From positions 1 through 40,359 of the forward strand of contig QWPB01000082.1 in NCBI GenBank assembly GCA_003671275.1: a stretch of 40,359 bases of DNA. Direction: 5' to 3'. The DNA is from Planctomycetota bacterium. GTDB lineage: Bacteria; Planctomycetota; Planctomycetia; Planctomycetales; Planctomycetaceae. The notes beneath the pieces were generated by a model. That model saw only the letters and a list, made by a program, of their open reading frames with translations. It was not told where the DNA came from and searched no databases. A program made the position numbers and the translations under genes. Positions 6,143-10,127 of the stretch are shown in pieces (positions within the stretch are counted from its first letter, which is position 1; every line of letters begins with the position of its first letter).

Positions 6143-6288
6143 ACGGATTCAGTACCCAGTGGTCGCCCCACAATGGGTGAACAAACGATCGCGCGGGGCG
6201 ATAACGATTGCTCCAGAACTCAATACCGACCATGATGCAGCAACCCCGGTCGGTTCGCCCGATCGATGGACAGACAGGAGTTATGCCC

Positions 6289-7137
6289 ATGGCAGCGGTG
6301 CCGTCCGTGAACGAAGAATCCCCCCCCTCACGCCCCAAACGGCCCGTGCCCGATGGGCTGTGGGTCAAGTGCGATAGCTGTAACGCGACGGTCTTTGGCA
6401 AGAAAGTCGAAGAAAACCTCGGCCTGTGCCCCGAGTGCAGCCACCACTTCTACGTTTCGGCCCAGGCCCGTATCGAGCAGCTGCTGGACGAAGACAGCTT
6501 CGAAGAGTGGTTCGGGGAGCTCTGCCCCGTTGACCCGCTCGGTTTCACCGACAAAAAACCGTACGCGCAGCGGCTGATCGAGGAACAAAAACGGACTGGC
6601 ATGCGCGATGCCTGCATCGTGGGCAAGGGTCACATGCGCGGACGTCCGCTGGTATTCGGACTGACTGACTCCACGTTCATCATGGGCAGCATGGGCTCCG
6701 TCGTGGGCGAGAAGCTGACCCGAGCCATTGAAGAAGCGACTCGACTGCGAATGCCCCTGGTGATTGTGAGCGGCTCCGGAGGAGGGGCCCGGATGCACGA
6801 GGGGATCTTCTCGCTCATGCAGATGGGCAAGGTCTCAGCGGCTCTCGGGCGGTATCACGACGCGGGTGGTCTGTATATCTCGGTCCTGACGAATCCGACG
6901 ATGGGTGGAGTCGCGGCCAGCTTTGCCTCTCTGGGCGACATCATGATCGCCGAACCTAAGGCCATGATCGGCTTTGCCGGGCCCCGCGTTGTGAAAGCCA
7001 CCGTGAAACAGAATCTGCCCGACGGATTCCAGACGAGTGAATTCCTGCTGGAACACGGATTTGTGGACATGATCGTGGCGCGTCCTGAGCTGCGGGCGGA
7101 AATCGCGCGGTTGATCGACTACTGCCAGATGAAGTAA
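6289..7137 (+). CDS. accD: Acetyl-CoA carboxylase carboxyltransferase subunit beta
   Basis: A 282-residue AccD, which with AccA transfers the carboxyl group from biotin to acetyl-CoA, the first step of fatty-acid synthesis. An N-terminal four-cysteine zinc ribbon (C28, C31, C47, C50) precedes the crotonase-like carboxyltransferase domain. That domain includes [48 protein letters not shown] and IGFAGPRVV. Upstream in-frame ATGs occur at 6208, 6232 and 6283, but AGGAG at 6276-6280 is ideally spaced (8 nt) for the ATG at 6289. accA is not in the window. Confidence 0.95.
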
Positions 7138-7249: not shown

Positions 7250-8146
7250 ATGGACTTCCTGAAGCGTCTTTTCCAGCGGGCTCCCAAGATCGAAAGGGTC
7301 GATATTAAGCGACGGTTTGAACTGCATGGGCGTGTCGGTCAGGGGAGCATGTCCAAGGTCTGGCGAGCCACCGACACCATCGGCAGCAAGCCCGTGGCCG
7401 TGAAAGTCCTCAATAAGCCTCAACTGGCAAGGACGGACGCCCGCTTTAAAAGCATGGGGTTGAAGCGTCCCCACGAGGGCGAAATCTCACTCTCCCTGCG
7501 ACACCCCAATATCGTCAAAACACTGGAATTCGGAATCACCACGGATGACGAAGAGTTCCTCGTCATGGAGTTCGTGGAAGGCGTCAGTCTTAGCTTTCTG
7601 GTCGAGACGCAAAGCCCCCAGATGAAGAAGAACTGCCTGTGGTACTGCATTCAGCTGGGCGAGGCTCTCGTGGCGGTGCATCGTGCTGGATATATCCACC
7701 GTGACCTGTGCCCGCGGAATGTCATCGTGAGCAATGAAGGGGTCGTAAAGTTAATCGATTTTGGCCTCGTGGTGCCGAACACCGATCCCTACAAACGTCC
7801 GGGGAACCGTACGGGAACCGCCAACTACATGGCCCCGGAACTCATCAAGCGGCAAGCGACCGATCAGCGAATCGACATTTTTTCGTTTGCCGTGACATGC
7901 TTTGAGATGTTCACGCGGCAGCTGCCCTGGGACTCGGACAACACCATGGATAGCGTTCTGCAACATATTAATGCTCCGCCTCGCGAGATTCAGAAGCTCG
8001 CGCCGAATCTGGATGCCGATGTCAGTGAAATCATTATGAAAGGATTGGAAAAATCCCCCCAGGACCGCTGGCAAACCGCGCGGGAAATGGTTGACGCACT
8101 GCGATCCGCCGCCCGCCGCCTGAAGGCAATGCCGGACGAAGAGTAA
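7250..8146 (+). CDS. Ser/Thr protein kinase with atypical HRDLCP catalytic loop
   Basis: A 298-residue kinase without transmembrane or extra domains. The glycine loop is GQGSMSKVW, the ATP lysine is K52 in VAVKVLN, and the hinge is FLVMEFVEGVSL. The DFG aspartate is D170 (LIDFGLVV), the activation segment is TGTANYMAPE, and subdomain IX is DIFSFAVTCFEM. The catalytic loop reads HRDLCPRN (150-157). The lysine usual at the fifth position in Ser/Thr kinases is Cys154, while the catalytic Asp152 and metal-binding Asn157 remain. Activity is plausible but altered. It lies 112 nt after accD; whether it acts on lipid synthesis is unknown. Confidence 0.88.
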   Translation: MDFLKRLFQRAPKIERVDIKRRFELHGRVGQGSMSKVWRATDTIGSKPVAVKVLNKPQLARTDARFKSMGLKRPHEGEISLSLRHPNIVKTLEFGITTDDEEFLVMEFVEGVSLSFLVETQSPQMKKNCLWYCIQLGEALVAVHRAGYIHRDLCPRNVIVSNEGVVKLIDFGLVVPNTDPYKRPGNRTGTANYMAPELIKRQATDQRIDIFSFAVTCFEMFTRQLPWDSDNTMDSVLQHINAPPREIQKLAPNLDADVSEIIMKGLEKSPQDRWQTAREMVDALRSAARRLKAMPDEE

Positions 8147-8403: not shown

Positions 8404-8679
8404 CTACGTTGACCGTTCGGGAACGGGTAGGCGTTTCTCGCTCCAGGTCACAGCCAGCACCACAATCAGCCCCACGCCGATCCCCACCATCAGCCCCTGC
8501 ACCAAACCGAGCGCCAGCCCTAGAACGGGTGGATCGAAGGGGGGAGGATTAACCCCTGAAAACGCCACACGATAAAAATCCGGAGCATATTTCCCGATCA
8601 GAAATCCCACGAACGCTCCCATGGCTCCGAAACCGAATCCGGTCCCCATCACCGTGCCCAGCCCCTTGGTAATCGTCAC
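8404..8679 (-). CDS. Small glycine-rich two-TM membrane protein
   Basis: A 91-residue hypothetical protein with two clear glycine-rich hydrophobic segments, about residues 8-29 and 51-79, separated by a proline-rich loop (NPPPFDPP). It has a short charged tail. The GTG start overlaps the stop of the upstream aroD-aroE-like gene as GTGA (8676-8679), a signature of translational coupling. The reading frame is therefore well supported even though the family is not recognised. An inner-membrane location is inferred from the hydrophobic segments. Confidence 0.7.
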   Translation of the reverse strand: MTITKGLGTVMGTGFGFGAMGAFVGFLIGKYAPDFYRVAFSGVNPPPFDPPVLGLALGLVQGLMVGIGVGLIVVLAVTWSEKRLPVPERST

Positions 8680-10127
8680 TCGGCGAGCCCTTTCACAAAG
8701 GCTTCCGGCGGCAAATCTCGCCCCGTAATCGCCTTGAACTGCGCGTTCAACTGGTCCACATACACCGACTGCGGCTCGACGGTCTTACATCCGCGTTCGC
8801 GAGCTTCCGTGAACAGGGCATGCTCCTTCGGCGGATCACTGACATCAAGCACCGTATGATTCGGACGGAACAGTGAGGGGTTAACGTTCCCCTGATTCTG
8901 ACCACAAACCACATGCCGATCAGCGATCACCACCACATCCGCCAGGGTGTCATACAGCTGGGCAAACGGGATAAAACGACACTCGTTGGTCGCAGCAATC
9001 TTTTGGGATTCTTTGTCTTTGGGGCCGCAGATACTGACCAGGCCCTTCCGCTGCGTAACCCCGTAAACCATGGACTGGGCCATGCCACCGTTCCCCAGCA
9101 CGAGAACGTTTTGCCGGTCGAGACCACGCTTCGCGTCCCCGCTGACCGCGGTTTCCAGTGCCCGCAGCCCGCTCCGCCAGAGAGTGTTATACCCATGCCA
9201 GCCATCATCCCGTCGCAACAGCAGGTCAATGTATTCGCTTTGAGCATCGTGTTTGTCGATATGCTCCGCGAGGGGCATCAGTCGCTGACCATTCCCTTCG
9301 CTGACTAGAATCGCCTTGATCTTCAGTACGTCCAACATCTTCTTCAGCATCTTGACATCGCCCAACTCAATCGGCAGGCAGCGGACGTTGACGCCGATCT
9401 GCTTGAAGGCGGCATTCAGAATGCGGGTGGTGATTGTTTGCGCCTCTCCGAATCCGGCGATGGCGATGAACACGGTGGACTTGTCGATCTCTCGACACGC
9501 GTATGTTTCATCCAGTTCAAAGACCGTCGCCTGCCCGGGGAAGGCTTCCAGCCCACGTTCCAGTGCGGCGTAAATCCACGGTGACCCGTACTTTTCGCCC
9601 AGCAAGGAAAACGTCAGATCAGCCCGCCCCAGCCCCATCCCAACGATCGGCAACCGCCGTTTCTGACTGACCGCCACCAGCAGTGGCCAGGCATCATCCA
9701 GTGTGGGTGTGGGCCACGTGAACTTCACCACATCGGCATGGGCATTGGCTGCCTCATCGAAAATGGAATCGATGTCAGACTCCGGCTGATCCATGCGGGT
9801 AAAGCTGATGACCCGCTGAGTTTTGCCGAATCGGGGGATTTTGGGGGCGATGTCCAGATCGAGTTCGATATAGGCGGGGCCCGCGACGATGGCCTGCCGC
9901 AACAGGCCCATCCGCTCCTGCTCCGAGCCCTCAAACTGGCCACCGTCCTGCTTCCGGCGACAGGAGACAATGATCGGCTTGTCAAAACCCGTAATCAGGT
10001 CTTTGACATCCGGTTCCTTAATCAGATGGTCCAGAGCCAGTTCCACGACGTCGGCATAACGACAGGCATTCAGGATGTCGACCTTGGCCAGCGTCCGCGA
10101 TGTCGGGGCGACTGTAATGCAGATCAT
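8676..10127 (-). CDS. Fused AroD-like (type I dehydroquinase) / AroE-like (shikimate dehydrogenase) protein, active sites degenerate
   Basis: A 483-residue two-domain protein. Residues 1-215 resemble type I 3-dehydroquinate dehydratase: VELALDHL, PIIVSCRRKQDGGQFEGS, the Schiff-base lysine K135 in ADVVKFT, and YGSPWIYAALERGLEAFPGQ. Residues 218-483 resemble shikimate dehydrogenase, with a nucleotide-binding turn VLVLGNGGMAQS (341-352). Several catalytic positions are not conserved. The dehydratase histidine (normally in an SxHD-type motif) is replaced by SFTRMD (108-113). The shikimate-binding SxS segment is GFGEAQTIT. The NVTxPxK lysine is absent (LVSEGNGQR). YNTD is YNTL (313-316). It may be a shikimate-pathway paralogue with a changed function. 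A 4-nt overlap couples it to the next gene. Confidence 0.8.
   Translation of the reverse strand: MICITVAPTSRTLAKVDILNACRYADVVELALDHLIKEPDVKDLITGFDKPIIVSCRRKQDGGQFEGSEQERMGLLRQAIVAGPAYIELDLDIAPKIPRFGKTQRVISFTRMDQPESDIDSIFDEAANAHADVVKFTWPTPTLDDAWPLLVAVSQKRRLPIVGMGLGRADLTFSLLGEKYGSPWIYAALERGLEAFPGQATVFELDETYACREIDKSTVFIAIAGFGEAQTITTRILNAAFKQIGVNVRCLPIELGDVKMLKKMLDVLKIKAILVSEGNGQRLMPLAEHIDKHDAQSEYIDLLLRRDDGWHGYNTLWRSGLRALETAVSGDAKRGLDRQNVLVLGNGGMAQSMVYGVTQRKGLVSICGPKDKESQKIAATNECRFIPFAQLYDTLADVVVIADRHVVCGQNQGNVNPSLFRPNHTVLDVSDPPKEHALFTEARERGCKTVEPQSVYVDQLNAQFKAITGRDLPPEAFVKGLAE

Follow-up and report, generated by a model that had tools for sequence, protein, structure and literature searches.

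The described protein closest to the one studied here is the fused dehydroquinase-shikimate dehydrogenase of Arabidopsis, DHQ-SDH (2gpt/2o7q), an AroDE (NCBIfam NF006802) that shares its domain order, its length and its fold. On the shikimate dehydrogenase (SDH) side, YdiB and HI0607 are divergent SDH-fold paralogs that exist beside AroE and were matched in our PDB sequence and structure searches; they keep the catalytic lysine and aspartate, whereas the planctomycete protein has lost both and is an AroDE fusion. Fungi offer two further parallels, of which the repressors QutR, GaaX and TanX are presumably of separate, fungal origin. Like the planctomycete paralog, these repressors represent a DHQase-SDH module diverted from catalysis (PMC10512348), but they have an extra shikimate-kinase-like domain and are paired with a Zn2Cys6 activator, and no such partner is seen for the paralog. 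The dehydroquinase domain of Candida albicans Aro1 is likewise a natural type I enzyme without the catalytic histidine, its reaction being done by another enzyme (PMC9074039). However, Aro1 stays active in its four other domains, and in some Candida species the lysine is missing as well, while the planctomycete paralog has an invariant lysine, changes in both domains and a pocket rebuilt along a shared pattern.

The window, which is the whole 40,359-nucleotide stretch of planctomycete DNA that was analysed, encodes this paralog as follows:

8676..10127, minus strand: AroD-AroE-like fusion protein P0001, a remodelled paralog, ATG start, 483 aa
9492..10127, minus strand: residues 1-212, a type I dehydroquinase-like (beta/alpha)8 domain whose pocket is both conserved and remodelled (Pfam DHquinase_I at residues 3-209; pocket entropy test)
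8679..9491, minus strand: SDH-like domain, residues 213-483, catalytic dyad lost and pocket not conserved (sub-cutoff NCBIfam aroE match at residues 221-471; alignment; pocket test)

A preliminary description had called the gene an AroD-AroE fusion with both folds, and Pfam, NCBIfam, PDB sequence matching and Foldseek all confirm this on the minus strand. P0001 matches Pfam DHquinase_I (PF01487) with E=1.7e-34 and 120.4 bits, above the gathering score of 22.2 bits, and the same match is present in all 26 orthologs scanned. Its best PDB sequence match is Arabidopsis DHQ-SDH 2gpt (E of about 1e-27), and the top Foldseek matches of its AlphaFold model are 2o7q and 2gpt, although this model, built from a shallow four-sequence alignment and with a mean pLDDT of 67 that falls to 28-39 over residues 161-210 of the barrel, lends weak support to the fold and nothing more. 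Compared with AroDE, however, P0001 has replacements at the catalytic histidine, R213, M203 and the SDH lysine and aspartate, and it scores far under the curated NCBIfam cut-offs: 63.8 bits against 139.3 for aroD (TIGR01093), 50.6 against 200.2 for aroE (TIGR00507) and 59.9 against 598 for the bifunctional AroDE model.

The dehydratase and SDH pockets

Our main new result, as read from the alignment, is that the SDH pocket has drifted like background while the dehydratase pocket has been rebuilt and then held. We compared residues in a joint alignment of 54 paralogs with 24 canonical proteins, with counts taken over 36 orthologs of the host's family and 15 paralogs of a second family. Columns were assigned by matching motifs of the planctomycete canonical AroDE and of the Arabidopsis protein to the Salmonella/E. 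coli numbering; the Salmonella sequence is absent from the alignment, and we take its residue numbers to fall on the columns named here. The dehydratase positions of most interest are:

9723..9725, minus strand: Lys135, counterpart of the Schiff-base Lys170, identical in 54/54 paralogs and in the 24 canonical proteins
9798..9800, minus strand: Thr110, replacing catalytic His143 (alignment)
9864..9866, minus strand: Glu88, replacing Asp114, in 36/36 of the host's family and 13/15 of the second family
9606..9608, minus strand: Ser174, replacing the substrate-carboxylate-binding Arg213 (alignment; role from PMC9902378)
9558..9560, minus strand: Glu190, a paralog-specific acid beside Leu189 (the Phe225 position), invariant in both main families

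In the characterized enzyme R213 forms a salt bridge to the substrate carboxylate, the C4/C5 hydroxyls are bound by E46, R48 and R82, and D114 lies near K170 (PMC9902378). The preliminary description was right that the Schiff-base lysine is retained, as it is in every paralog, and that the dehydratase histidine is replaced: threonine occupies the His143 column in 31/36 orthologs of the host's family and 14/15 paralogs of the second, and one divergent ortholog, in G009, has histidine there. There is no displaced catalytic histidine, as no position of the paralog family carries a histidine conserved at 60% or more. Beyond the histidine its list of dehydratase changes was incomplete, and R48 to A31, D114 to E88, M203 to L166, R213 to S174 and F225 to L189 must be added. 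Arginine at the R213 column is found in 24/24 canonical proteins and in 0/51 paralogs of the two main families, where it is serine in 33/36 of the host's family and S, A or T in the second. The F225 position is leucine throughout (36/36 and 15/15), M203 is mostly leucine in paralogs, and the R48 column is cysteine in 30/36 of the host's family, alanine in P0001 and arginine in the second family. Against this background of replacement, E46 (Glu29 in P0001) is invariant across both main families, R82 (Arg57) is near-invariant (arginine, twice lysine), and D/E86 and Q236 are mostly retained.

At its ten positions, the dehydratase pocket varies less than sets of positions drawn at random from that domain: the share of such sets with variability as low is 0.036 in one family and 0.017 in the other, a modest test given ten residues and related sequences. 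Conservation of the lysine in paralogs could be structural, and the barrel model being poor, it is the sequence alignment on which the pocket geometry rests.

The SDH-like half tells a different story. Its key positions are:

9288..9290, minus strand: Gly280, replacing the SDH catalytic lysine (alignment)
9180..9182, minus strand: Leu316, replacing the SDH catalytic aspartate (YNTL; alignment)
9429..9437, minus strand: T231-I-T233 at the shikimate-binding SxS position (gapless alignment)

Gly280 and Leu316 account for the absent NVTxPxK lysine and the change from YNTD to YNTL noted earlier, but the SxS segment, which had been described as gone, aligns without a gap as T231-x-T233; the position is variable among orthologs, and TxT in P0001 is conservative. 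The catalytic lysine and aspartate are replaced across the paralogs with no consistent successor residues, and the alignment of their SDH halves holds no nearly invariant lysine, hence no displaced SDH lysine. The nucleotide-binding turn was said to remain, which is true of GNGG in P0001 but not of the later glycines, which vary among orthologs, and the NRT motif of NADP binding is GPK in P0001. The ten-position SDH pocket is as variable as random sets (fractions 0.80 and 0.56 in the two families). In canonical proteins both pockets are conserved (fraction as low 0.0000). The earlier view that both active sites are lost almost certainly holds for the ancestral activities, but it overlooks that the two domains are unlike and that the dehydratase pocket is conserved, rebuilt in a common pattern around an invariant lysine.

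Origin, retention and the intact shikimate genes

A first sample of the host's family (37 genomes, G000-G036) yielded an ortholog in 35, the 34 from genomes other than the host's being about 43-88% identical to P0001. An order-wide search returned 148 genomes, all of the host's family, with an ortholog in 141 of them and in 54 genera; G018, G023, G071, G105, G117, G147 and G167 gave canonical-level scores only and no ortholog. About 20 of the 61 second-family genomes have a related paralog, and in a third family one genome, G039, in which dozens of kinase matches are also seen, carries canonical AroDE together with three divergent paralogs:

G039:C1:930853-932286: divergent paralog
G039:C1:6471086-6472513: divergent paralog
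G039:C1:7436806-7438254: divergent paralog

No match at E 1e-101 was found outside the host's family in a phylum sample of 392 genomes, this cut-off and the sampling making the phylum distribution a lower bound. As far as sampled, the gene is planctomycete-specific, as had been suspected.

A maximum-likelihood tree of 75 proteins, rooted at the midpoint and with two G039 rows on long branches, separates all paralogs from all canonical AroDE (planctomycete, acidobacterial and Arabidopsis) at a single split with 100/100 support. This split suggests that the duplication predates the families compared or that the gene was transferred early. The dN/dS of the window gene against a congener is 0.045, compared with 0.10 for the canonical AroDE pair from these two organisms; dS is high in this comparison and the values are rough, but the closer pair L004-L005 gives 0.044. 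Given this ratio and the retention in 141/148 genomes, the window gene is not a decaying pseudogene and is under strong purifying selection.

The preliminary description had also proposed looking for a second complete copy, and the host genome has one. A genome-wide search, in a genome that is 99% complete, identified a full-length AroDE at G000:C81, 28% identical to P0001, which carries every catalytic residue in the alignment and scores above both curated cut-offs (149.2 bits against 139.3 for TIGR01093 and 217.1 bits against 200.2 for TIGR00507). A stand-alone AroE at G000:C51:18202-18990 (L003) likewise exceeds the curated aroE cut-off; a type II dehydroquinase was not found in the genome. 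With the C81 AroDE and the C51 AroE intact, P0001 is not needed for the shikimate steps, and the genome has two seemingly intact SDH genes, the canonical AroDE and the stand-alone AroE.

Proposed function and rival explanations

The H143Q substitution abolishes AroD activity (PMC9074039), and in SDH the lysine takes part in catalysis (PMC2789096). P0001 is therefore not expected to carry out either ancestral reaction, and both activities have almost certainly been lost. To that extent the earlier suggestion of a pseudoenzyme or an enzyme with a new substrate stands, the shikimate steps being covered elsewhere, but mere loss does not describe a dehydratase pocket that has been remodelled.

We propose that AroDE was duplicated anciently and that one copy left the shikimate pathway, was kept as a functional protein across the whole planctomycete family, and took on a new role for its lysine pocket, a scenario that we consider rather probable. 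Hypothetically, Lys135 would still form an imine with, or closely contact, a carbonyl ligand, whose vicinal hydroxyls would be bound by E29 and R57 and which would lack a C1 carboxylate, the group bound by Arg213; the SDH-like half may serve as a structural or dimerising appendage with no redox activity. Retention of E46, R82 and K170 together with loss of R213 and H143 predicts such a ligand, with a carbonyl, vicinal hydroxyls and no carboxylate at that place. In a more specific and distinctly tentative form of this proposal, the paralog would be a lineage-wide new Schiff-base enzyme in which a polyhydroxylated carbonyl compound without a C1 carboxylate is processed by Lys135 together with Thr110, Glu88 and Glu190, as part of a pathway peculiar to the lineage. 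Between new catalysis by the lysine pocket and ligand sensing we somewhat favor catalysis, but the two fit the data almost equally well.

Sensing would mean that the old dehydratase pocket binds a metabolite and signals to a partner, in the manner of QutR, GaaX and TanX, and we regard it as rather unlikely. The fungal SK-DHQase-SDH repressors, which are regarded as inactive in catalysis yet able to bind inducer (PMC10512348), provide a precedent, and strong pocket conservation is compatible with ligand binding. One distant paralog in G039 is furthermore fused behind a kinase with the pocket lysine and threonine kept:

L074:7920-10730 (G039:C1:6471044-6473851), minus strand: kinase-fused divergent paralog, 936 aa, C-terminal to a Hanks-type Ser/Thr kinase domain

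However, only this copy is fused, its branch is long and its genome encodes dozens of kinases, and kinase genes lie near the paralog in only 6 of 81 loci; nor does the paralog have a DNA-binding domain or a conserved regulator neighbor. A non-catalytic subunit or chaperone-like partner of canonical AroDE, which would form a heterodimer through the barrel and regulate shikimate flux, is improbable. Nearly all carriers also have canonical AroDE, and the inactive DHQase domain of Candida albicans Aro1 mediates homodimerization (PMC9074039), but joint presence means little when AroDE is needed regardless, the paralog is missing from many relatives that have AroDE, and conservation of the pocket rather than of surface positions alone is left unexplained. 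That the gene is a decaying relic of a duplicated shikimate gene is hardly credible: both ancestral active sites are degenerate, the SDH domain is variable and the ortholog of a few genomes has an internal TGA, but the dN/dS of 0.045, the retention in 141/148 genomes and the common derived residues refute it.

An enzyme-derived paralog without the ancestral catalysis is of a familiar kind; what is notable is the near-universal retention and the common lysine-centered pocket. If our proposal of a retained protein with a new role is true, it adds a bacterial, long-retained shikimate enzyme recruited elsewhere, in parallel to the fungal AROM-derived repressors, and because the replaced residues are precisely defined, the new function can be tested directly. 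Automatic annotation likely mislabels the gene as dehydroquinate dehydratase or shikimate dehydrogenase throughout the family, counting the pathway twice. We found no paper on this paralog in a literature search whose coverage mostly excluded subscription journals.

Neighborhood of the gene

Two window genes next to the AroDE-like gene were considered as partners:

8404..8679, minus strand: putative membrane ORF of 91 aa, overlapping the stop of the AroDE-like gene by 4 bases (weak sub-cutoff DUF7520 match)
7250-8146 of the window, plus strand: gene for a stand-alone Ser/Thr kinase of 298 aa, downstream of accD (6208-7137) and convergent with the AroDE-like gene

Coupling to the small membrane protein, as first suggested, did not survive comparison: no homolog of the ORF lies beside any ortholog, congeners with 87-88% identity included, and it is probably not part of the AroDE-like system. 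The kinase was rejected as a partner, as kinases are not enriched around the paralog (6/81 loci).

Across the 81 loci there is mostly no conserved neighborhood. In 13 of them the paralog is preceded on its own strand by a gene for a CehA/McbA-type metallohydrolase, no more than 310 bp away in 10 (L053, L055, L057, L060, L065, L150, L156, L158, L164, L165) and farther away in L064, L074 and L160. The metallohydrolase was rejected as an obligate partner, as its orthologs also occur unlinked (including on C71 of the host genome), several genomes with the paralog gave no match to it, and its close orthologs in the second family are mostly in genomes without the paralog. The CehA/McbA-family metallohydrolase is about 800 aa long and has a likely signal peptide.
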